This document shows positions 10,047 through 47,041 of a stretch of 64,000 nucleotides of DNA, piece by piece; within the stretch, counting starts at the first letter, position 1; every line of letters begins with the position of its first letter. The position numbers and the translations under genes were made by a program. Source of the stretch: an uncultured Bacilli bacterium (GTDB lineage: Bacteria > Bacillota_I > Bacilli_A > RF39 > UBA660). Location of the stretch: the NCBI GenBank assembly GCA_944329375.1, contig CALVIB010000005.1, positions 1 through 64,000 of the forward strand, read 5' to 3'. A model generated the notes under the pieces. The model was not told the DNA's origin, made no database searches, and saw only the letters and a list, made by a program, of their open reading frames with translations.

Positions 10047-10793
10047 CTAAAGTGTTTTAATTTTTGTTTTTACTTTTTCTATCCTTTTTTCTAAATTTCT
10101 TTGCTGTTTTAAAATCATTTCTATTTGTTTTTCTAAACTTTCTTCTTGTTGGTTATTCTCACTATCAATAATTATTGGCAATATTTGAGCTTTTAAGACT
10201 TCACATAAATCATAACTAACGTTTTCTTTATTTGATTTTTTGCTTCTTCTTAAAGAGTAAAATAATGAGTTTACTGATAATAGTTGATTATTTTCTTCAT
10301 CGTAATACCATTCAATTGGGATTATTGGATGGAATTTATCATTAAACAAAACATATTTTTGATTGCTTTTTTCAAATTCTAAGCCCATTCTTTTTTCGCC
10401 AATTGGGTAACATTTACTGGTATATTCTAAGTCGGTTGGATTTATAATTTGAACCGTTTTAGAACTATACCAATTTCCAAATTCTATTACTTTAATATTG
10501 TTTTTAACTAATTTTAATTTGCTATTTTTAACTAAGTTAGGTAAATCATTATAAGTTATAATAGGTCTTACTCCATTTTGACTATCAACGCTTCTATAAA
10601 CTATTTGTCCATATATGGTTGCACAAGGCGAAAGAGCTTCACGGCCATTTTCATTAAAAATATCTGAAGTCCAGTAGTTAGTTAAATCGCCACTCAAGTC
10701 GGTACATTTTATTCCTATCTCATTAATTAGTTTAGAATTTTTTAAATATTCTACTGATGGTAAATTAATTGTGAAATTATCTTTGTTATACAT
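10047..10793 (-). CDS. GVRP-motif (DUF6273-like) protein with coiled-coil tail
   Basis: 248 residues, no signal peptide or membrane helix. It shares with the three genes at 12.0-15.6 kb a core made of NYWTS (near residue 38), GVRPIITYNDL (near 75), a FGxW/GxY turn, and PIEWYYDEENNQLLSVNSLF (near 158). The last 40 residues are a Lys/Glu/Gln-rich coiled coil (EKQIEMILKQQRNLEKRIE). The YWT and GVRP signatures recall DUF6273, a domain seen in gut Bacillota proteins with a sulfatase-activator-like fold, but that is recall, not a search. It is the most divergent member and lacks the FLNNEF segment. Function unknown. Ribosome site AAAGGAAG. Confidence 0.8.
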   Translation of the reverse strand: MYNKDNFTINLPSVEYLKNSKLINEIGIKCTDLSGDLTNYWTSDIFNENGREALSPCATIYGQIVYRSVDSQNGVRPIITYNDLPNLVKNSKLKLVKNNIKVIEFGNWYSSKTVQIINPTDLEYTSKCYPIGEKRMGLEFEKSNQKYVLFNDKFHPIIPIEWYYDEENNQLLSVNSLFYSLRRSKKSNKENVSYDLCEVLKAQILPIIIDSENNQQEESLEKQIEMILKQQRNLEKRIEKVKTKIKTL

Positions 10794-10808
10794 AAAACTT
10801 ACTTCCTT

Positions 10809-11330
10809 TCAATTAACTAGTATGTCAGTTACTAAATCGACAAAATCTATTCCAAAATCTTTTATTTTATAAAATAAATCTTTTAAAAAATGATTTTTAG
10901 TGCCACAGGCATTTATTATTAAAATAGAGTCCTTTTCTATTTTTACTTCTTTAGTATACCTTAGATATTTTTGTTTTAATTTTTTTAAGTCATCTTTTTT
11001 TCCATATATATAAATGGTTTGATTACATAAATAAATACTATTTGGAACAAATGAACGATAAAATTGTTTGATGATATCAAAATTACATATAATATTATCT
11101 AAAGATTTTTTCTTAAATTGTTTTTTTATTTTTTTTATATTTATTTTTTTATTTTTCCCTCGCTTAGTTATACTAAATTTTTTTCCAGTTAAACTTATAT
11201 TATTCAAAAGATAGCATACATCAATATTAGAGTTTTCTTCAATAGCATTTAAAATATTTTCGTTAGTCAAACCAATTCCAAGTAAAGACCCTTTTAATTT
11301 GTTAATTATTTCTAATATTTGTTCATCCAT
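10809..11330 (-). CDS. Conserved-looking protein of unknown function next to tcdA
   Basis: 173 residues, very rich in Lys and Ile, no signal or membrane segment. I do not recognise the family. The N-terminal 35 residues look helical; the middle (GKKFSITKRGKNKKINIKK) is strongly basic and could bind nucleic acid; the end holds a small Rossmann-like stretch SILIINACGTKNHFL. The start overlaps the tcdA stop by eight bases and has a good ribosome site (TTGGAGG), so it is co-translated with TcdA. The pairing hints at a role in tRNA modification, but this is only context. Confidence 0.75.
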   Translation of the reverse strand: MDEQILEIINKLKGSLLGIGLTNENILNAIEENSNIDVCYLLNNISLTGKKFSITKRGKNKKINIKKIKKQFKKKSLDNIICNFDIIKQFYRSFVPNSIYLCNQTIYIYGKKDDLKKLKQKYLRYTKEVKIEKDSILIINACGTKNHFLKDLFYKIKDFGIDFVDLVTDILVN

Positions 11331-11994
11331 GATTTTCCTCCAAAATTTTATTTACTACATAACTTGCGGCTATTAGTCCAGCTGTTGGTGGGACAAAGGC
11401 ACTTGAACCTACTTTACCTTTTATTATTGGTTTTTCTTTAGAATAAATTACGGGTATTTTTTCTTTTATTTTTTCTTCTTTAACCATTTTTCTAATTATT
11501 TTAGCAATAGGGTCATATTCTGTTTTTCTAATGTCAGATATTTCTAATAATTCTGGATGCATTTTATTTCCTGTTCCCATTACTGAAATAAAAGGTGTTT
11601 TTTCTTTTAGGCATGTTTTGATAATTAATTTTTTTGTTTCTATGGTATCAATGGCATCAATTACAAAATCTATTTTATTTGAAAATACTTCATCTATATT
11701 ATTTTTGTCTAAAAATATTTGATAGGTTTTAATATTTGCATTTGGATTTATATTGTAAGCTAGTTTTTTAGCTATATCGGTTTTATATTGACCTATGGTG
11801 TTTTGGTGAGCTAAAGTTTGTCTATTTAAATTGGTAATATCTATTTTGTCATTATCTATAACTATTATATTTTCTATCCCACTTCTAATTAAACTCTCAA
11901 ATGCGTGTCCACCAACACCACCTAGACCAATTACTAAAATTGTTTTATTTTTTAATTTATCTATGTCAATCAACAATTTTAATCTATCAAACAA
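11323..11994 (-). CDS. tcdA: ThiF/E1-like protein, tRNA threonylcarbamoyladenosine dehydratase
   Basis: 223 residues. TcdA adenylates and cyclises the threonylcarbamoyl group of t6A37 in tRNA. Seen: ATP-binding LVIGLGGVGGHAFESLIRSGI near residue 20, DNDKIDITNLNRQ near 48 (the conserved Asp and Arg), and FVIDAIDTIETK near 105. The C-terminal KVGSSAFVPPTAGLIAASYVV is typical of TcdA rather than MoeB or ThiF. There is no ThiS- or MoaD-like partner nearby. A GTG at 12003 is in frame but belongs to the ribosome site AGGGTGG; the TTG at 11994 gives the usual Met-Phe-Asp-Arg beginning. Confidence 0.87.
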   Translation of the reverse strand: MFDRLKLLIDIDKLKNKTILVIGLGGVGGHAFESLIRSGIENIIVIDNDKIDITNLNRQTLAHQNTIGQYKTDIAKKLAYNINPNANIKTYQIFLDKNNIDEVFSNKIDFVIDAIDTIETKKLIIKTCLKEKTPFISVMGTGNKMHPELLEISDIRKTEYDPIAKIIRKMVKEEKIKEKIPVIYSKEKPIIKGKVGSSAFVPPTAGLIAASYVVNKILEENHG

Positions 11995-12035
11995 TTTAAC
12001 CACCCTGTTTTAATTATACTATATTTCTTCTAAAG

Positions 12036-12070
12036 AAAAAAGTTTTAAAATTTTATTTTTTTAAAACTTT
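12036..12070 (-). terminator. terminator after the GVRP-family operon
   Basis: AAAGTTTTAAA and TTTTAAAACTTT pair over an A-rich loop, ending in six U on the minus strand. It overlaps the last codons of the gene ending at 12053 and separates it from tcdA. The stem is all A-U except one pair, so it is weak on paper. Confidence 0.6.
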
Positions 12071-12892
12071 TGAAGGACCCTTTAATGAATTTTCTATTTC
12101 AGAGTTTAAACTATTATTTTGAGTTTTTAGTTCCTCATTTTCTTGAATAATTTTTTTTAGTTTTTTTAACTCTTTTATTTTTGTTTCTATCTCTTTTTCT
12201 AGTATTTCTTTTTTTCTTATTAACGCTGCCATTTCATTGTTTTTTGGGTTTGGTAAAAGACTATTTATAAATTCATTATTCAAAAAATGATATAGCTGTG
12301 AGGTTTCAAAATCGCCATTATAATTTTTGTTATCTATATTTATTGGGGCTTCAAACAAAACATCTTTAGCTATTAACATGTTATATTCTCTATCTATATA
12401 AAATTTGATTGGCATTACTTCGTAAAAACCATATTTTAAATGTGCAAACTTTGTTCCATAATATTGATATTCTAAAAATTCATCTACTCTATAATTATTT
12501 TGTCTAGAGGCATCACATGGATAGTAATAACTTTTGCCTGTTGGTTTTGAACTATTAGAAGTATAAAATTTTTCTTCTAAATTAGGATACTCTCCATATT
12601 CTACAACTTCAACGCCATTTTCATATGATATTTTCAAATCTTTAATTAATTTTTCTAAGTTATTAGTTTTTAGAACTGGGCGGATGCCATGAACTTCATT
12701 GGCTTTATTTTTTAAAATTCCGCCAATTGTTGTAATTAAAAGAATATAGTATACATTGTTCCAAGATTCATAACTTGATGACATACTACGTGTCCAATAA
12801 GGTATACTGCATTCTCGCCCAACTTTTTTTAATACTTTTGATTTTCTTATTTCTTCTTTACTTAATAATGTTACTTCGATATCTTTATTCAT
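12053..12892 (-). CDS. GVRP-motif (DUF6273-like) protein with coiled-coil tail
   Basis: 279 residues from the chosen ATG, which follows TTGGAGAT and gives the start MNKDIEVTLLSKEE shared with its paralogue at 13.9 kb; an ATG ten codons upstream lacks a site. Core motifs: PYWTRS, GIRPVLKTNNL, VVEYGEYPNL, KPTG, PIKFYIDREYNMLIAKDVLF, and LYHFLNNEF. The last 75 residues form a Lys/Glu coiled coil ending GPSKVLKK. No signal peptide. Its start overlaps the end of the upstream two-repeat gene by eight bases, so the two are coupled. Function unknown; the family may be a binding domain. Confidence 0.82.
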   Translation of the reverse strand: MNKDIEVTLLSKEEIRKSKVLKKVGRECSIPYWTRSMSSSYESWNNVYYILLITTIGGILKNKANEVHGIRPVLKTNNLEKLIKDLKISYENGVEVVEYGEYPNLEEKFYTSNSSKPTGKSYYYPCDASRQNNYRVDEFLEYQYYGTKFAHLKYGFYEVMPIKFYIDREYNMLIAKDVLFEAPINIDNKNYNGDFETSQLYHFLNNEFINSLLPNPKNNEMAALIRKKEILEKEIETKIKELKKLKKIIQENEELKTQNNSLNSEIENSLKGPSKVLKK

Positions 12893-13880
12893 GATTATCT
12901 CCAATATTAATTTTATATCCATTTCTTAAAACTTTTGATTTAGCAAATTTATCTATGTCATCTTTATGTTCACATTCAAATGCGACTAAAGTATCTAAAT
13001 AATCTTCATCTATTACAATACAGTTTAAATTACCACTTTCATTATAAGAAAGTCGCCATTTATTTTTAGGTAATATATTTTTTAAAGGTTTTACATAATT
13101 AATTTCAATTCCATTGTTAATATATTCATTAGTGCATAAATTAAAAATATTACCATTTATACTTGTTATAAAATTAGCAACAGTTTGATTTTCATTTATT
13201 CTAAAATACCAGTATTTATCTAAATCATCTGTAGCTTGATTTTTAAATTCATCAATAAATGCATCTTTTTTATTTCCTTTTGGTAAAATAATTTTGCCAT
13301 TATCAATCATACCTTCTAATAGAACAGCTAAATCCTCTATACCTTCATAAGTTATATTAATTAATTTTTCTCTTTCGAATGATGAATCATGATTAACATT
13401 TTCTAAAATAGCTAAAAATATATTTTCGTCTGTTATGTTTTTTAAATTAGCTTTGGTCAATATAATTTTTTTCTTAAACTTTGGAGTAATATAACCATTT
13501 TTCAAAACTTTCTTTTTGGCATCCTTATCATAAATACCTTTATATTTTTCTTCAAATTCTTCAAATAAATATATTTTATCATCATCTACATCAATCGTTA
13601 TAATATTATAATTAACAATATAAATTAATCGCCATATTTCTTTTGGTACAAAATCAGAAAATGCTTTAGCATATAAAATTTCATCTGTTATATATTTATG
13701 AGTACTAAAATTATAAATTTTACCATCAATTGCTGCTATATAATTTAATGAAGGATTATCTTTTAAAAAAGCTAAAAATATATTATCCCCATTAATCATA
13801 TCTAAATCATTTGGATTTAGATAATCAATATTCTTATAAATCTTACCATAATCATCTATATTAAAATATTCTTTTTCCAT
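12885..13880 (-). CDS. Unknown protein with two internal repeats
   Basis: 331 residues, cytoplasmic by appearance. Two copies of one domain of about 100 residues are visible: residues 27-130 (NIFLAFLKDNPS, IDGKIYNFSTHKYI, VPKEIWRLIY, KKKVLKNGY) and 222-325 (INGNIFNLCTNEYI, LPKNKWRLSY, KSKVLRNGY). A Lys-rich linker with KKIILTKANLKN joins them. I do not recognise the family. It lies in an operon between two GVRP-motif genes with one-base and eight-base junctions, which suggests a shared function. Confidence 0.78.
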   Translation of the reverse strand: MEKEYFNIDDYGKIYKNIDYLNPNDLDMINGDNIFLAFLKDNPSLNYIAAIDGKIYNFSTHKYITDEILYAKAFSDFVPKEIWRLIYIVNYNIITIDVDDDKIYLFEEFEEKYKGIYDKDAKKKVLKNGYITPKFKKKIILTKANLKNITDENIFLAILENVNHDSSFEREKLINITYEGIEDLAVLLEGMIDNGKIILPKGNKKDAFIDEFKNQATDDLDKYWYFRINENQTVANFITSINGNIFNLCTNEYINNGIEINYVKPLKNILPKNKWRLSYNESGNLNCIVIDEDYLDTLVAFECEHKDDIDKFAKSKVLRNGYKINIGDNHE

Positions 13881-13881
13881 A

Positions 13882-14796
13882 TTAATTCCTTTTTAACACC
13901 TTAACTTTACTAATTTCTTTTTCTATATCACTATCTAAATTAGTGCTTTGAACTCTAAAGGCTTCATTTTGAGCACTTATTTCTTTTATCTTTTTTAATA
14001 ACGTTTTTTTTCTTTGAATTTCTTCTTCTAATTTTCTATTTTCTTCTTGTAATTGTTTTAATAGTATTTCATCTTGTACATTATCCTCTATTGGTTGTAA
14101 TAATGTTTCATCTTGCACCTTATTTTCTCGATAAAGTGAAGGACATAAAATCTCTATAAATTCGTTATTTAAAAATTTATATAACTCTGATTTTTCAAAA
14201 ACATCAAATATTGCTTCATAATCCATATTTATTGGCGAGGTAAATAAAATGTTTGCAGATATAAGTCTATTATTTTCTTTATCAACAAAAAAATCAATTG
14301 GACGTACTAAGAAAAATTTGTTACAAAAATTGGCGATTTTTTGTCCATTATAATCATATTCTGTTACTTTACTTAAATCATAGGTTTCTGTCTCTTGTGA
14401 TTTTTCTGTTATTAAAGGTAGATTATATTCTTTACCTGTCGGTTTTAAAAATGATATATCATTTATTTTTATTTCTCCACTTGAAAAGTCAATAAATTCT
14501 CCAAATCGAATTCTAATAAGACTAGACTTTTTTAAATCATAAGTTTTGAATAATTTTTCTAAATCATCTGTTTTAATAACTGGTCTTACACCTAAATTTT
14601 CATCAGCTGTTGTACGACCATATTTACCATTTGTTCCACCGTAAGTAAATAATCCATGAGTAAGACTAGTATAATATGTAGGTGCAGGGGTTTTTGTCCA
14701 ATAGCACCACATATTACCTATTCCTCTTTCTGGTAAACCATACCAAGATGAAACATCTTCTTTTGATAATAATGTTACTTCAAAATCTTTATTCAT
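13882..14796 (-). CDS. GVRP-motif (DUF6273-like) protein with coiled-coil tail
   Basis: 304 residues. The ATG at 14796 follows AAAGGAGAAAGT; an upstream in-frame ATG sits in the promoter region and is rejected. Motifs in order: VTLLSKEDV, CYWTKTP near residue 29, GVRPVIKTDDL near 66, KPTG, PIDFFVDKENNRLISANILF near 165, SPINMDY and LYKFLNNEFIEIL. A long coiled coil fills residues 230-300 (EENRKLEEEIQRKKTLLKK) and ends KVKVLKRN, much like the paralogue at 12.0 kb. First gene of a three-gene operon with its own promoter. Function unknown. Confidence 0.82.
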   Translation of the reverse strand: MNKDFEVTLLSKEDVSSWYGLPERGIGNMWCYWTKTPAPTYYTSLTHGLFTYGGTNGKYGRTTADENLGVRPVIKTDDLEKLFKTYDLKKSSLIRIRFGEFIDFSSGEIKINDISFLKPTGKEYNLPLITEKSQETETYDLSKVTEYDYNGQKIANFCNKFFLVRPIDFFVDKENNRLISANILFTSPINMDYEAIFDVFEKSELYKFLNNEFIEILCPSLYRENKVQDETLLQPIEDNVQDEILLKQLQEENRKLEEEIQRKKTLLKKIKEISAQNEAFRVQSTNLDSDIEKEISKVKVLKRN

Positions 14797-14822
14797 ACTT
14801 TCTCCTTTAATTTGTATTGTAT

Positions 14823-14851
14823 ATTTTACTAACAAATTATATGTGTGTCAA
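14823..14851 (-). promoter_or_regulatory. promoter of the GVRP-family operon
   Basis: TTGACA, 17 bases, TAAAAT on the minus strand, 27 bases before the ATG at 14796. Confidence 0.8.
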
Positions 14852-14915
14852 TAAAAGATTGTAATCAAAATGAAATAATTTTATGATAGTTTTTTATCTG
14901 TTAAATTATTTAGTT

Positions 14916-15596
14916 TTATAAGTGCAGGGTCTTTTGTTTTGATACATAATGATTTAATAACAAATCCTTTTTAAATTCTTCATTCAAAAAACGGTATAAC
15001 TGGGAATATTTAAAATATTTTTCAAAAATATTATTATATTTAAAATTTCTTACATTTATTGGCGAGGTAAATAAAACACCTGCAGATATTAACATACTAT
15101 TTTCTATATCAACGTAAAACTTAACTGGTTTTACTGGATAATAAGAACCCTGTAATCTAATAATCTCTTGGTCATTATTATAAATGTATGATGGACAGTT
15201 ATACCACTGAAATATATTAGATTTACTAATCGCAGATGCGACTATAATTTTATATTTATAGAACTGCTGTTTAAAAGTGTAGGAATAATCAACGTTTAAT
15301 TTTTTACTTAAATCAGGATATGTTCCAAGTTTTATAGTTAGAACACCATTATTTAATTCACTTGGACAATTTTTGATTAATGTATATAAATTATCTGTTT
15401 TTAAAACTGGGCGGACGCCATAGTTATAATGTGTTTGATCATAGAAAATATATCCAAAAATATCAGCTACACCAGAAAAACTTTTTAAAATCATATCACT
15501 TGTCCAATAAAACCTTTTACATCCAGCCCCAAGCTTTTGTAAAACCTTAGATTCTTCTATTTCTTTTCTCGATAAAAGTGTTACTTCAATATTCAT
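14916..15596 (-). CDS. GVRP-motif (DUF6273-like) protein, no coiled-coil tail
   Basis: 226 residues. Begins MNIEVTLLSRKEIEESK behind TTTAGGAGAG. Carries FYWTSDM, GVRPVLKTDNLYTL, IKLGTYPDLSKK, PVKFYVDIENSMLISAGVLF, SPINV and LYRFLNEEF, so it aligns along its length with the paralogues at 12.0 and 13.9 kb. It stops right after the FLNEEF helix and lacks their coiled-coil tail, either a natural short form or a truncation. Separated from the 13.9-kb gene by a promoter, so it may be its own unit following the murC terminator. Confidence 0.8.
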   Translation of the reverse strand: MNIEVTLLSRKEIEESKVLQKLGAGCKRFYWTSDMILKSFSGVADIFGYIFYDQTHYNYGVRPVLKTDNLYTLIKNCPSELNNGVLTIKLGTYPDLSKKLNVDYSYTFKQQFYKYKIIVASAISKSNIFQWYNCPSYIYNNDQEIIRLQGSYYPVKPVKFYVDIENSMLISAGVLFTSPINVRNFKYNNIFEKYFKYSQLYRFLNEEFKKDLLLNHYVSKQKTLHL

Positions 15597-24733: not shown

Positions 24734-25744
24734 TTAATGATTTTTTAAATAAGTTAAAGCTTCTTCAAAAGTTCCTACTGGAATCAATTTAATATTGTAA
24801 CCTTTTTCTTTTTTTATTTTTTTGGCTTCTTTATAATTTTTTCCTTTTGGAACTAGAAATACATCTGCATGTTTATTAACCGCTCCTATTAATTTATATT
24901 TAATTCCACTAATTTCTCCAACATTGCCATTTATATCTATGGTTCCAGTTCCAACAATGGTTTTACCACTAGTTAAATCTACTTGATTTAAATGACTATA
25001 TAGCGCGAGAGTAAGCATTAGACCACCAGAAGAACCTGACTCACTACCATTAAAGTTAAATTTAACTTTTTCATTTGATTTTACATCAAATGTTTCGGTA
25101 ATAATGGCTCCAACTTTTGGTTCATTTAATATATCTATCAATGTGGCTTTTCTAGTTTGTTTATTTCCATTTATATCATTTACTTCAATGGTAATTTTAT
25201 CTTTGATTTTTTTTGATGAGATATATGAAAATAAGGATTCTTTATCGGTTATTTTTTGATTATCAATTTTTAATATTCTATCCCCTATTTTTAAATCTGT
25301 TTTAGCCATCTCATCAACATAAGTTATATATACTTTATTATTAGTTATTTTATAGTTTATGTCTGAGTGTTTATATGCAACTAAAAGCGCGGTATCGTTA
25401 GCTTCTTCTAGAAGCATTTTGTTACGGTAGTTTTTTTCTTCTACTGTTTCGTTATCGTTTTTAACTTCGGTTTCTTTTTCTACATCCCAATCTTTATTTA
25501 ATAAAGATATTATTAATGTTGGTATAGTAGCGTGTATTTCAGAAACATAAGCCATATTTAATGAACCTTTCATCTTGAAATTTTCAGTTGTTTTAATTTT
25601 ATCATCGGTATTAATTAATCCACCTGGGGCGGAAATATAATATGGAAATTCTATTAAGAAAACAACTAAAATCAAAATATAAATTATAATAGCTTTATAG
25701 TATTCTTTTATATATTTTTTAATATTATTAAATAGGTTTTTCAT
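24734..25744 (-). CDS. YlbL-like PDZ-Lon membrane protease
   Basis: 336 residues. One N-terminal membrane helix (about 15-35), a PDZ domain near residues 140-205 (MAKTDLKIGDRILKIDN), and a Lon-type proteolytic domain with the catalytic Ser in SGSSGGLMLTLALY and the Lys in GIKYKLIGAV, plus GTIDINGNVGEISG. This is the S16 family of YlbL/YdgD-like proteins, with the catalytic part outside the membrane. In B. subtilis ylbL lies close to ylbJ; here the two are divergent neighbours, which supports both calls. Known YlbL takes part in releasing the SOS cell-division block. Confidence 0.88.
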   Translation of the reverse strand: MKNLFNNIKKYIKEYYKAIIIYILILVVFLIEFPYYISAPGGLINTDDKIKTTENFKMKGSLNMAYVSEIHATIPTLIISLLNKDWDVEKETEVKNDNETVEEKNYRNKMLLEEANDTALLVAYKHSDINYKITNNKVYITYVDEMAKTDLKIGDRILKIDNQKITDKESLFSYISSKKIKDKITIEVNDINGNKQTRKATLIDILNEPKVGAIITETFDVKSNEKVKFNFNGSESGSSGGLMLTLALYSHLNQVDLTSGKTIVGTGTIDINGNVGEISGIKYKLIGAVNKHADVFLVPKGKNYKEAKKIKKEKGYNIKLIPVGTFEEALTYLKNH

Positions 25745-25790
25745 ATAAACTTCCTTTCATTATAATTTTTATTTTCAAGTGGGTGAAATT

Positions 25791-26765
25791 ATGAAAAAAT
25801 GTATTAGTGTTTTTATTATGATTTTTTTAGGATATATTGGTTATGAAATTTTAACTGAGTCTGAAAGTATTTTAAATTCAGTTAGTTTTTCTTTAAATAT
25901 TTTTAAAAACAATATTTTCCCATCTTTATTTCCATTTTTTGTCCTTTCAAATCTTTTGATTAAATGCGGGATTCCTGAATTTATGGGAAATTTATTCAAA
26001 GGAATTATGAATAAAGTTTTCAAAATAAAAGGAGTTTGTGCATTTATCTTTTTCATGAGTATTATATCAGGAAATCCAGCAAATGCAAAATACACCAGAG
26101 AATTATATTTGGAAAATAAAATAAATAAATATGAAGCAACTAAGATTCTTTGTTTTACTTGTTTTTCTAATCCTTTATTTATTTTAGGAACGGTATCACT
26201 TTTATTTTTAAATAATAAAGAGGTTGGTTTTTTAATATTGATTTGTCATTATTTGGGTAATGTTTTTGTCGGTATTGGTATGCGAAGATACCATCCTAGT
26301 AAAGAAGAAAATGAAGTAACTAGTTTAAAAAAAGCTATTGATGCGATGCACAAAAAAAGAATTAGTAACAAAATTAATTTTGGGGAAATGATTACAAATT
26401 CTTTAACCAGCAGCATCAATACATTACTTTTAATATTAGGAGTTATTACAACTTCACTAGTATTAACAACAATTATAGACAATAATTTAAATTTAAACAG
26501 TATTTTTCAAAGTGTATTAAATGGTTTTATAGAAATGACACAAGGACTTAAATATATAAGTTTAGAAGCAATTCCTTTAAAGTTAAAATGTGTTTTAACA
26601 GTGATGATTTTGTCTTTTGGTGGTTTTTCTGTACATATGCAGATAATGAGTATTTTAAGTGATACAGATATTAAATATTTACCTTTTTTATGTGCGAGAA
26701 TATGTCATGCTGTAATATCTTCATTACTGATGTATTTTGGTTTTGATATTTGGATGAGATTTTAA
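25791..26765 (+). CDS. ylbJ: Sporulation integral membrane protein YlbJ-like
   Basis: 324 residues, mostly hydrophobic, about eight membrane helices, nucleoside-transporter (Gate) fold type. Seen: NIFPSLFPFFVLSNLLI near the N-terminus, then MSIISGNPANAKYTREL and TCFSNPLFILGTV, all conserved in YlbJ, which is required for spore cortex formation. A GTG four codons earlier belongs to the ribosome site; the ATG at 25791 is used. Divergent from the YlbL-like gene. Confidence 0.88.
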   Translation: MKKCISVFIMIFLGYIGYEILTESESILNSVSFSLNIFKNNIFPSLFPFFVLSNLLIKCGIPEFMGNLFKGIMNKVFKIKGVCAFIFFMSIISGNPANAKYTRELYLENKINKYEATKILCFTCFSNPLFILGTVSLLFLNNKEVGFLILICHYLGNVFVGIGMRRYHPSKEENEVTSLKKAIDAMHKKRISNKINFGEMITNSLTSSINTLLLILGVITTSLVLTTIIDNNLNLNSIFQSVLNGFIEMTQGLKYISLEAIPLKLKCVLTVMILSFGGFSVHMQIMSILSDTDIKYLPFLCARICHAVISSLLMYFGFDIWMRF

Positions 26766-43638: not shown

Positions 43639-43989
43639 TTAATCTTTTGGTTCAAATATTAAAGACATAAAGAAGGCAAAGATAATAGCAGCACTAATAC
43701 CAGCGGCTGTTAAATCTAGAGTACCACTAAATAATCCTAATACTCCTTCTGTATTATATCCATGGATTGCTCCATGGGTTAAGTTATGACCAAAACTAGT
43801 TATAGGAACAAGTGCGCCACCACCTGCCCATAAAATTATTTGGTCATATATATTAAAAACATCTAAAAAGGCACCTAATACTACAAATATTACTGTGATA
43901 TGTCCAGGAGTAAGTTTAGTTTTATCAAGAATTATTTGAGCAATAGCACAGACAAAACCAGCAAATAAAAAGGCATTTAAATATATCAT
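43639..43989 (-). CDS. spoVAE: Stage V sporulation protein AE (SpoVAEb type)
   Basis: 116 residues, four to five membrane helices. Seen: FLFAGFVCAIAQIILDKTKLTPGHITV near the N-terminus and GGGALVPITSFGHNLTHGAIHGY in the middle, both characteristic. Part of the membrane channel that moves dipicolinic acid into the forespore and out at germination. Overlaps spoVAD by four bases; last gene of a three-gene operon. Confidence 0.93.
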   Translation of the reverse strand: MIYLNAFLFAGFVCAIAQIILDKTKLTPGHITVIFVVLGAFLDVFNIYDQIILWAGGGALVPITSFGHNLTHGAIHGYNTEGVLGLFSGTLDLTAAGISAAIIFAFFMSLIFEPKD

Positions 43990-44975
43990 GAGATTACCTC
44001 CAAACTAATAGCATGGCTTATGCTTGGTATTGTAAGTTTATGGTTTACCATGGTTGGATTCATTAAAGCACCAGTAGCTACAAGTAAAACTTTTTTGTAT
44101 TTTCCTTTTTTCATTTCATCAAATATGTAACTATAAGTCACTAAAGGGGCACATGCTGGTCCTGAAGCTCCTGCATAAACGGGTTGATTTTTTAAATCAT
44201 AAAGCATAACACCTGTATCGTTATATTTTTCAAGATTAATGTTATATTCACTAGACATATATTCTTTTAAAATTTTTTTACCATATATTCCTAAGTCACC
44301 AGTTAAAATTAAATCATAATAATCAATAGTTCTTTTAGTATCATTTAAATGTTTAGAAATTGTATCAGCTGCGGCTTTAGCCATAGCTGCTCCCATATTA
44401 TAAACATCTTTACTTAATGAATCGACTACTGTACCTATTGTTCCACTTTCTATTTTAATGGTATTTTGTTCGTTAGAAACTAAAGCTGCAACTGCTCCAG
44501 TGGAAGTAAATGTTGTGGTTTTTCTTTTGGGACCTCCATATTCTACTGGATAACGATATTGTTTTTCAGCGGCTGTATTATGAGATGATGTAAAGGTAAC
44601 TGCTTTTTTTATAAATCCTCCTTGAATTAAAATGGCGGATAAAATAAGACCTAAGGTAGAAGTTGTACATGCGGCATATATTCCAATAAAACTTTGATTA
44701 TATTTACTCATGGCATAATTAGAAGGTGCAATTTGGTTGAGTAAGTCTCCACCTATAAAAACATCGATGTCTTTTTCTGTTAATTTACTTTTTTTAAGTA
44801 CAATATCAATAGCTTCTTTAATTGATTTTTCTTCAGCTTGTTCCCAATTTTTTTCTCCAAAGTACAAATCTTTATGACATAAATCAAAATACTTACCTAA
44901 TGGTCCTTTACTTTCATAAGGTCCTGTGACAGTAGCAGTTTCATTTATATAAATATCATTAAATTTAATTGTCAT
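43986..44975 (-). CDS. spoVAD: Stage V sporulation protein AD
   Basis: 329 residues, thiolase-fold protein that binds dipicolinic acid. Seen: TATVTGPYESKGPLGKYFD near the N-terminus, the GIYAACTTSTLGLILSA loop with the Cys near residue 103, PVEYGGPKRKTTTFTSTGA, and NHKLTIPSISHAISLE at the end. Overlaps spoVAC by four bases. The operon has only C, D and E; spoVAA, AB and AF are absent, as in minimal mobile or clostridial sets. Confidence 0.95.
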   Translation of the reverse strand: MTIKFNDIYINETATVTGPYESKGPLGKYFDLCHKDLYFGEKNWEQAEEKSIKEAIDIVLKKSKLTEKDIDVFIGGDLLNQIAPSNYAMSKYNQSFIGIYAACTTSTLGLILSAILIQGGFIKKAVTFTSSHNTAAEKQYRYPVEYGGPKRKTTTFTSTGAVAALVSNEQNTIKIESGTIGTVVDSLSKDVYNMGAAMAKAAADTISKHLNDTKRTIDYYDLILTGDLGIYGKKILKEYMSSEYNINLEKYNDTGVMLYDLKNQPVYAGASGPACAPLVTYSYIFDEMKKGKYKKVLLVATGALMNPTMVNHKLTIPSISHAISLEVIS

Positions 44976-45409
44976 AAAAGACCAACCACCATTCTAATTA
45001 AACTAAAGATAAAACTACTTACTACACCAAATATGATAACTGCACCTGATAATTTAAGCATATTCATACCTATTCCAGTAACTAATCCTTCTTTTCTATA
45101 TTCTAAGGCTGCACTCATGGTTGCATGAGCAAATCCAGTAATTGGAATTATTAATCCACATTTACAAAAATTAACCCATTTATCAAAAAATCCTAAAGAT
45201 GTAAATAAACAACTAAAAAATATCAAGGTTACAAGCATACACACAGTAGCTTCTTTAGTAGAAATATCTAACCAGTAAGAATATCCATCAATTAAAATTT
45301 GACCAATAATACCTATTATTCCTCCACTTATAAAGGCTATAATTGCATTTGTTAAAACGTTTTCTTTAGGGTAGTTTTTTTGGACTATTTCTTGATAACT
45401 TTTTTTCAT
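44972..45409 (-). CDS. spoVAC: Stage V sporulation protein AC
   Basis: 145 residues, four membrane helices. Seen: AFISGGIIGIIGQILIDGY and the conserved GLIIPITGFAHATMSAALEY motif. SpoVAC is a mechanosensitive channel in the spore inner membrane. First gene of the operon, ribosome site TTAGGAGG, with a forespore-type promoter upstream. Confidence 0.94.
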   Translation of the reverse strand: MKKSYQEIVQKNYPKENVLTNAIIAFISGGIIGIIGQILIDGYSYWLDISTKEATVCMLVTLIFFSCLFTSLGFFDKWVNFCKCGLIIPITGFAHATMSAALEYRKEGLVTGIGMNMLKLSGAVIIFGVVSSFIFSLIRMVVGLL

Positions 45410-45457: not shown

Positions 45458-45482
45458 AAAAAACATGCCTAACAATTAGGCA
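45458..45482 (-). terminator. pilin gene terminator
   Basis: TGCCTAA and TTAGGCA pair over three bases, then UGUUUUUUG on the minus strand. The stem includes the pilin stop codon, and the U run touches the spoVA promoter. Confidence 0.8.
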
Positions 45483-45873
45483 CGCTAGATGAAATAACAT
45501 ATTCATATTTATATTTATTATTAGCAAAGGTAACGATAACTTTTCCATCAAAGTTTTTAAATTTTTCTTCAGGTTTTGAACTGTTTTTTTTATATTTTGG
45601 ATTATCAATATCATCTACACTTAATAAACCTTCTTTTTGTAGAGTACTAACACTAATAGTACATTTAGCGTTTTCTTCCTGATTTGGTAACTTTAATGAA
45701 TTTTTAGACATATATGTTCTCGCCGCATTTTGGATTGTGTTTATTTGTTCATTATAGGCTTTATTACGAGAAGAATTTATTGCTGTATTAATAGTTGGTA
45801 TAGCTATACTAGCAAGTATTCCTAAAATAACAATAACACTTAAAAGTTCAACTAAAGTAAATCCTTTTTTCAT
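45469..45873 (-). CDS. Type IV pilin-like protein (ComGC/GspG type)
   Basis: 134 residues from ATG 45873, behind AGGTGGTAGAA. Prepilin signal MKKGFTLVELLSVIVILGIL with cleavage after Gly and Glu at mature position 5, one helix of about 20 residues, then an alpha/beta domain with two Cys (NAKCTIS and the final NC). A major-pilin-like protein. Its gene stands alone between the sigma factor and spoVA, far from the assembly ATPase. Confidence 0.88.
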   Translation of the reverse strand: MKKGFTLVELLSVIVILGILASIAIPTINTAINSSRNKAYNEQINTIQNAARTYMSKNSLKLPNQEENAKCTISVSTLQKEGLLSVDDIDNPKYKKNSSKPEEKFKNFDGKVIVTFANNKYKYEYVISSSVPNC

Positions 45874-45891
45874 TTCTACCACCTATTATTA

Positions 45892-45920
45892 ATTATAAAT
45901 AAGCAATTAGTAATTGTCAA
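45892..45920 (-). promoter_or_regulatory. pilin gene promoter
   Basis: TTGACA, 17 bases, TATAAT on the minus strand, perfect consensus, with the -35 box overlapping the stop codon of the sigma factor gene. Confidence 0.88.
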
Positions 45921-46558
45921 TTAAAGGTTTTACGAAGTTTTGTTAAGACTTTTTTTTCTTTTCTAGAAACATTTACTTGACTTAAACCTAAACTATCTGC
46001 GACTTCACTTTGAGTCATATCTTCAAAATATCTATAATACATGATTGTTCTTTCTGGTTCTTCCAAAGATTCAAATTGTTGTTTTAAAAAAATTAAATTA
46101 TCATAATTATGGTCTGAGCCTATTACATCATAAAGAGATAAATCATCTAAATAAAATTCATCTAAGCTTAATCCTTCTCCTTTATAATTCATAAGTATGT
46201 TTACATTTTCTAAAGGTATATTTAAATAATTACTAATTTCTTCGTTTGTTGGCTCTTTCATTAGTTCTTGCGAAAGATATATTTTTACTTTTTCAAGTTT
46301 TCTTTTTGCTCTTGTCATATCTCTACTTAATTTAATTGTATGATTTTCTCTTATAAATTCAGTTATTCTTCCTAAAATATATGGGTAGGCGAAGCTGGTA
46401 AATTTAACGCCTCTTGATTCATCAAAATTTTTATAGGCTTCCATCATTCCAATACATCCAACTTGAAACAAATCATCAATATCACTATAATTGAATTTAT
46501 TTGCAATACTGTATATTAAATTACTGTTTTTTATTATAACCTCTTTTAAAGGTTCCAT
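45917..46558 (-). CDS. Sporulation sigma factor of the SigF/SigG type
   Basis: 213 residues. Sigma-70 regions: 2 with FNYSDIDDLFQVGCIGMMEAYKNFDESRGVKFTSFAYPYILGRI, 3 with RDMTRAKRKLEKVK and a helix-turn-helix EEISNYLNIP, 4 with TQSEVADSLGLSQVNVSRKEKKVL. The region 2 and 3 wording and the length match SigF/SigG rather than SigB or SigE. Ten bases behind a STAS-domain gene, as spoIIAA precedes spoIIA genes, but the SpoIIAB kinase gene that should lie between is missing. TGA stop. SigF and SigG cannot be told apart here. Confidence 0.9.
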   Translation of the reverse strand: MEPLKEVIIKNSNLIYSIANKFNYSDIDDLFQVGCIGMMEAYKNFDESRGVKFTSFAYPYILGRITEFIRENHTIKLSRDMTRAKRKLEKVKIYLSQELMKEPTNEEISNYLNIPLENVNILMNYKGEGLSLDEFYLDDLSLYDVIGSDHNYDNLIFLKQQFESLEEPERTIMYYRYFEDMTQSEVADSLGLSQVNVSRKEKKVLTKLRKTFN

Positions 46559-46568
46559 TTTTGCCTCC

Positions 46569-46895
46569 TTATGAATTTATTAAATGACAAGCTGATAGTT
46601 CATCTTTGACAATATTTAAAGATTTTAAATCATAGTTAAACTTATTTTTATTTAAACAAATCATACTGTTACCATTATTTTTGGAGGAAATGTTATAGCA
46701 TTTAATAAGATTTTTATATCCGCTATCATCCATTTTGTAAACATTTTCTAGATTAAAAACAACATTTTTAACTCCAATATTTATAAGTAAGTCGAATACT
46801 TCTTTGTTAAATTTTTTTCTAGTCTTTTTAGTTAATTCGCCAAATAACCTTACAAATAATATTCCATACTTTGAGTCCATATCTATCTCTAACAT
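46569..46895 (-). CDS. STAS-domain anti-anti-sigma factor (SpoIIAA-like)
   Basis: 108 residues. STAS fold with the phosphorylation-site phrase YKMDDSGYKNLIKCY near residue 60, where SpoIIAA has MDSSG, and the N-terminal LFVRLFGELTKKTRKKF strand-helix. By family, the unphosphorylated form frees a sigma factor from its anti-sigma kinase. The gene directly precedes the SigF/SigG-type sigma gene. No kinase (GHKL) gene is in the window. The last 30 residues are divergent from SpoIIAA. Confidence 0.83.
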   Translation of the reverse strand: MLEIDMDSKYGILFVRLFGELTKKTRKKFNKEVFDLLINIGVKNVVFNLENVYKMDDSGYKNLIKCYNISSKNNGNSMICLNKNKFNYDLKSLNIVKDELSACHLINS

Positions 46896-46961
46896 ATCAT
46901 CACCGATTATACTTTAACATCTTTTAATTTTAATTTATATAAATTCGCCAAAACTAGTCAT

Positions 46962-46994
46962 AAAAAGAAAAAATACGTGATATTAACGTATTTT
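46962..46994 (-). terminator. terminator after the gene at 47.0 kb
   Basis: AAAATACGT and ACGTATTTT form a nine-pair stem over a seven-base loop, followed by UUCUUUUUA on the minus strand. It isolates the spoIIAA-sigma pair from upstream transcription. Confidence 0.8.
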
Positions 46995-47041
46995 TAGACT
47001 ATTGATAAACTATATTTTGAAAATATAATATATTAAATTTT

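Follow-up and report, generated by a model that had tools for sequence, protein, structure and literature searches.

A spoIIA-sigF operon without recognizable SpoIIAB or SpoIIE partners in a family of reduced-genome Bacilli

Introduction

In Bacillus subtilis, the genes around sigma F are arranged in the order dacF-spoIIAA-spoIIAB-sigF-spoVA, and textbooks treat SpoIIAB and SpoIIE as essential for forespore-specific gene expression to begin. Herein, we describe a version of this locus that has no spoIIAB. It lies in the first 64,000 nucleotides (the “window”) of contig CALVIB010000005.1 (assembly GCA_944329375.1), which comes from an uncultured Bacilli bacterium (GTDB lineage Bacilli_A; RF39; UBA660); there, a gene for a SpoIIAA-like STAS-domain protein is directly followed by one for a sigma factor. 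An earlier note on this DNA had drawn attention to the missing anti-sigma kinase gene, and had reasoned that a kinase encoded elsewhere acts on a phosphorylatable serine kept in the STAS protein or, alternatively, that the switch works without a kinase.

Passages of a published survey already give the absence of spoIIAB and spoIIE from the RF39 order as gene counts of KEGG orthologues, and the gene pattern found here matches the sporulation gene set presented there for the order (PMC10868615). The passages of that survey that bear on the topic mention neither the retained STAS gene, nor its lost phosphorylation site, nor the conserved Spo0A box, nor the relatives without a STAS gene. A limited literature search likewise found no prior description of these features or of the loss of the docking surfaces of the STAS protein.

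Results

All three parts of the partner-switching module, i.e. the kinase, the phosphatase, and a phosphorylatable STAS protein, are missing in the family. Our sample comprises 60 family genomes (G000-G059) from 17 genera, with 29 of the genomes listed as at least 90% complete. The window genome (G000) is a 1.19-Mb assembly of 48 contigs that is 81% complete, and the named contigs of its relatives are mostly metagenome-assembled genomes labelled uncultured Bacilli bacterium. In the window, the STAS open reading frame (ORF) is followed on the minus strand, after a gap of ten bases, by that of the sigma factor, with no gene between them, just as the earlier note had described.

No SpoIIAB was recognizable in any of the 60 family genomes, that of the window included, with either model PF13581 or a profile built from seven SpoIIABs of the same class. 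The former picked up SpoIIAB in several of the class’s other families; within the family, all that it matches are domains embedded in ORFs a few hundred residues long. The latter scored 168-248 bits in ten SpoIIAB-bearing relatives versus at most 41 bits in the family, where the matches are ORFs of about 300 amino acids or longer. The sole short ORF, in G011, is a piece of a histidine kinase cut off by the end of its contig; this kinase, a membrane protein with a HisKA box, also gives the best match in the window genome. For SpoIIE (PF07228), none of the 60 genomes scored above the cut-off, and the only match at E <= 0.01 reached 16 bits (G022), versus at least 88 bits in the SpoIIAB-bearing relatives. 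In other families of the class, those sporulating relatives for which the pair was checked encode both SpoIIAB and SpoIIE. The two SpoIIAB searches, with their positive controls, rule out a spoIIAB elsewhere in these genomes, and with SpoIIE missing too there is no sign of the normal partner set that the earlier note had raised against its own reading. Because a SpoIIAB-like protein and SpoIIE are missing from all 60 genomes, the gap at the locus is not an artefact of assembly, and the absence first noted at this one place extends to the window genome and to the family. A new anti-sigma gene in the position of spoIIAB is also ruled out: among the loci read, an insert between the STAS gene and sigF occurs only in G044, where it encodes S-adenosylmethionine synthetase.

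The STAS protein of the window scores 28.4 bits against Pfam PF01740 (cut-off 22.6). Its top NCBIfam model is that of SpoIIAA (TIGR02886), at 39.7 bits far under the model’s cut-off of 114.75. When a profile of the family’s STAS proteins, which took in four SpoIIAB-bearing rows, was compared with solved structures, SpoIIAA chains ranked first (E ~1e-26), the closest being 1th8, 1tid, and 1auz. B. subtilis SpoIIAA reads MDSSG around its phosphorylated residue, S58. Upon alignment, the MDDSG of the window places Asp at S58, and the serine that is kept aligns with S59; it is thus not the phosphorylatable residue for which the earlier note had taken it. Ser stands at S58 in all 11 SpoIIAB-bearing rows versus 4 of the 64 family sequences, which is about background (Thr in one). 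The commonest residues of this column in the alignment are D (11), K (10), I (9), E (9), N (5), and S (5); the fifth Ser row (L101) belongs to a locus of another family, does not represent a family STAS protein, and was left out of the family count. Solved chain 1tid has Ala in this column, which we take to be the S58A mutant known from the literature.

Further, the change is not confined to the phosphosite. E21, D23, F55, S58, S59, G62, R67, and K72 are invariant or nearly so in the 11 SpoIIAB-bearing rows, and the same columns have entropies of 2.0-3.4 bits in the family; S94, fixed or near-fixed in those rows, has drifted in the family as well. G12, G42, and E106 behave in the opposite manner, being near-invariant in the family and variable in the SpoIIAB-bearing rows. 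In a published structure, E21 is the point of clash with sigma F, and the equivalents of D23 and S58 are kinase contacts in RsbV (PMC7340262); R67 sits in the SpoIIE interface of another (PMC11418112). The columns for kinase docking and for phosphatase docking have both drifted; both faces were thus freed from constraint as the two enzymes were lost. The family’s STAS protein has lost the phospho-serine and most of the residues that contact SpoIIAB or SpoIIE in SpoIIAA and RsbV. Little remains of the idea that a kinase acts on it from elsewhere: Ser58 is not conserved, SpoIIE is missing, and such GHKL proteins as turned up in the family are sensor histidine kinases of considerable length. With SpoIIAB, SpoIIE, and the phospho-serine all missing, the evidence favours the other branch of the earlier reasoning, a switch that works without a kinase.

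The STAS gene itself has been retained in most of the family, and it is under purifying selection. It is free of internal stops in 53 of the 60 genomes, with a diverged copy in G055. The ratio of nonsynonymous to synonymous change (dN/dS, Nei-Gojobori) spans 0.06-0.23 across 14 close family pairs, one recent pair with few changes giving 0.35, and is 0.09-0.17 between the window and its nearest relatives; these values, which are rough given large synonymous differences in most pairs, are comparable with those of sigF (0.065-0.17). In the comparison of relatives that the earlier note had proposed, the STAS gene usually adjoins sigF (about 40 loci), with spoIIAB missing family-wide and with varying genes upstream (FtsK, a DacF-like protein, a membrane protein, and others). 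Four genomes (G015, G051, G056, and G058) have sigF with no recognizable STAS gene beside it, and the Spo0A box directly before sigF; G015, from the window’s own genus, retains SpoIIR, Spo0A, and SigG.

An exact Spo0A box (TGNCGAA) is found upstream of the STAS gene in 60 of 64 family loci, many of which are close relatives and hence not independent, against an expectation of 2.8 for mononucleotide shuffles. In most loci, its first base stands 55-66 bases ahead of the STAS start codon. The bases around it vary between loci, and most promoters share CTAGTTTTGNCGAA. Because TGNCGAA is common in the window (28 matches), the weight lies on the fixed position of the box across genera. Control by Spo0A is indicated, as a prediction from this box, for the STAS gene and sigF, which spacing and a shared promoter region place in one putative operon.

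We next consider the sigma factor. Its best models are SigB/F/G and then SigF, and against the SigF model (TIGR02885) it scores 163.8 bits, under the curated cut-off of 321.45. We placed it in a tree with other sigma factors (102 sequences in all), where the family’s 62 SigFs form one clade (100/99), apart from SigG (99/91), SigE, and RpoD. The SigFs of SpoIIAB-bearing relatives split into two groups in this tree, and there is no single supported clade that unites all SigFs. A separate SigG is encoded in the window genome (G000:C21). We assign the window protein as the predicted sigma F on gene order, the Spo0A box, the separate SigG, and the exclusion of SigG, SigE, and SigA. The phylogeny called for in the earlier note has thus been run, and the possibility raised there, that the protein is SigG, falls with it. 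The separate SigG also rules out a merged F/G factor; sigG first seemed missing, and is not beside sigE. In the family, sigG lies apart from spoIIGA-sigE (L184, L186, L200, L202, and L203), and it adjoins them in related families (L188, L191, and L194). Eight rows were also compared to see whether the patch of sigma F that binds SpoIIAB has decayed; how their columns correspond to the published Asp148 is uncertain, and they are not used as evidence.

The rest of the cascade is represented in the window genome by Spo0A, SpoIIR, YlbJ, and spoVAC/AD/AE, and by SpoIIGA beside SigE, plus SigK, the names of the last three resting on gene order and on resemblance. A histidine kinase of the membrane, ~413 amino acids long (L273 2448-3689, G000:C1), recurs across the family and in the window genome lies near a gpr-like gene; it may be a sensor kinase for sporulation. 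The position of sigF relative to the chromosome origin was considered as an alternative cue; no family genome compared had dnaA and sigF on one contig.

With spoVAC, spoVAD, and spoVAE downstream (Table 1), this is the classical sigF-spoVA locus; set against the B. subtilis order, it is the same locus minus spoIIAB. The pilin-like gene that stands between sigF and spoVAC is present there in most genomes of the window’s genus, and is missing there in several other genera of the family. Farther off in the window, the gene for sporulation membrane protein YlbJ adjoins one for a PDZ protease, and a cluster of related ORFs has common motifs such as VRPVLKTDNL.

Table 1. Features of the window (coordinates in the 64,000-nucleotide stretch)
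Feature	Position	Strand	Basis
SpoIIAA-like STAS-domain protein, 108 amino acids, Asp at the Ser58 position (MDDSG)	46569..46895	(-)	Pfam/NCBIfam models, alignment
Predicted sigma F, 213 amino acids, regions 2, 3, and 4	45917..46558	(-)	models; tree outside SigG, SigE, and RpoD
Promoter region of the putative STAS-sigF operon, with a terminator-like palindrome belonging to the gene upstream, followed by the Spo0A box and a -10-like element	46896..47041	(-)	sequence; promoter comparison across relatives
Spo0A box TTTTGGCGAA; core TGGCGAA starts 55 bases before the STAS start codon	46944..46953	(-)	sequence
Type IV pilin-like gene between sigF and spoVAC	45469..45882	(-)	models and synteny
spoVAC	44972..45409	(-)	models
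spoVAD	43986..44975	(-)	models
spoVAE	43639..43989	(-)	models
YlbJ	25779..26765		237 bits, under model cut-off
SepM-like PDZ protease	24734..25744		
Cluster of related ORFs without assigned function (10047-10793, 12053-12922, 13882-14835, 14916-15596)	10047..15596	(-)	

Discussion

The kinase, the phosphatase, and the phosphosite have been lost, so this family must control the start of spore development differently. The SpoIIAB/SpoIIE phosphorylation partner switch has disappeared from the spoIIA-sigF operon of these reduced-genome Bacilli. We propose that sigma F would be switched mainly through Spo0A-driven transcription plus a putative compartment cue, and that the STAS protein, co-produced with sigma F, may contact it directly and without any need for phosphorylation, thereby tuning the sigma factor or how readily it reaches RNA polymerase. 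Taken as a whole, this proposal has in our estimation an even chance of being right. What favours direct action of the STAS protein on sigma F is that their genes remain neighbours even as those upstream differ between relatives. More tentatively, and with doubts that outweigh our confidence, we suggest that a former anti-anti-sigma factor has become a direct, phosphorylation-free regulator of sigma F, such that one STAS protein would stand in for a three-protein switch and the STAS-less relatives would manage on Spo0A-controlled transcription alone.

Several points weigh against this proposal. Direct contact between the STAS protein and sigma F, which we infer as the most likely mode of action, is its least certain step. 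The adjacency of the two genes may be explained by inheritance from an ancestral operon. The comparison of docking columns draws on just 11 SpoIIAB-bearing rows. The STAS gene is dispensable: at least four relatives have lost it and kept sigF, so it is useful in most of the family yet not required. Finally, that the family sporulates at all is predicted from its genes alone.

Another possibility, unlikely in our view and still deserving of attention, is that the STAS protein has given up contact with sigma F and keeps a SpoIIAB-independent job, for instance the negative regulation of Spo0A activation, with sigma F controlled by expression alone. Such a role beside partner switching has been described for SpoIIAA in B. 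subtilis (reviewed in PMC8256260), the operon has a Spo0A box in a genome that encodes Spo0A, and the loss of the STAS gene from some relatives would remove just a feedback loop; however, the kept neighbourhood with sigF fits a role in sigma F control equally well. A lower probability attaches to the notion that the STAS protein does little and is merely a leftover of the partner switch in slow decay. The randomized phosphosite and docking surface are what decay would produce, as are the strongly diverged copies in L168 and G055 and the absences from G015, G051, G056, and G058. Nonetheless, purifying selection disfavours this idea: dN/dS is low and comparable with that of sigF in nearly all close pairs, the recent pair with few changes aside, matches free of internal stops persist in most genomes, and new near-invariant residues have arisen.

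We give yet less credence to a partnership in which the STAS protein and a family-restricted membrane protein encoded directly upstream would jointly sense the septum in place of SpoIIE. This membrane protein is ~370-530 amino acids long; it has a signal peptide, a membrane helix near the C-terminus, and tyrosine-rich motifs of the RRYKYYKLEKE type (examples: L099 3605-4810, L071 3205-4755, and L283 4038-5171); a convincing Pfam or NCBIfam match to it was not found. Its gene lies directly upstream of the STAS gene in ~17 loci from several genera, its profile matches 38 of 60 family genomes and none of 39 others, all 38 also have the STAS gene, and one copy, at G000:C20, belongs to the window genome (the L283 example). 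Yet the conserved Spo0A box stands between this gene and the STAS gene, or inside the 3′ end of the former, so that promoter does not drive the membrane-protein gene, whose own upstream region had no Spo0A box in nine loci; moreover, ~15 genomes have a STAS gene with no detectable copy, and the protein is predicted from its sequence to be mostly extracellular. Finally, it is very improbable that an unrecognized kinase, such as a sensor histidine kinase, phosphorylates the STAS protein and serves as the anti-sigma factor: the family’s top match to the SpoIIAB profile is a recurring kinase of ~400-430 amino acids, located in the window genome ~2.6 kb from gpr (named by resemblance), but its HisKA box (ITHEIKNP) and hydrophobic N-terminal segments are unlike SpoIIAB, and the target serine is missing from the STAS protein.

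A family that keeps the sigma cascade without SpoIIAB and SpoIIE, and in some members without the STAS protein, amounts to a natural experiment on what is needed to establish two cell fates once a cell has divided asymmetrically. Caution is also called for, as spoIIAB would be misleading as a marker of spore-forming ability in such a family. In SpoMAG, spoIIAB is among the genes present in all predicted spore-formers, and RF39 genomes scored 0% (PMC12536801).

STAS-only proteins that depart from the canonical scheme have been described before. SypA and HmpV are thought to act on targets besides the classical anti-sigma factor (PMC8256260), but their control still runs through the phosphorylation of a conserved serine, which the STAS protein of this family has lost. 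The closest described system remains spoIIAA-spoIIAB-sigF of B. subtilis, which the window resembles in its gene order minus spoIIAB, the STAS family, the predicted sigma F, the Spo0A box, and the downstream spoVA genes; in genus g5, a DacF-like carboxypeptidase gene (named by resemblance) even lies directly upstream (L070), as dacF does in B. subtilis. The family differs from the spoIIA switch of B. subtilis in being without spoIIAB, SpoIIE, and the phospho-serine, in the degraded docking surfaces of its STAS protein, and in having relatives for which that protein is dispensable.
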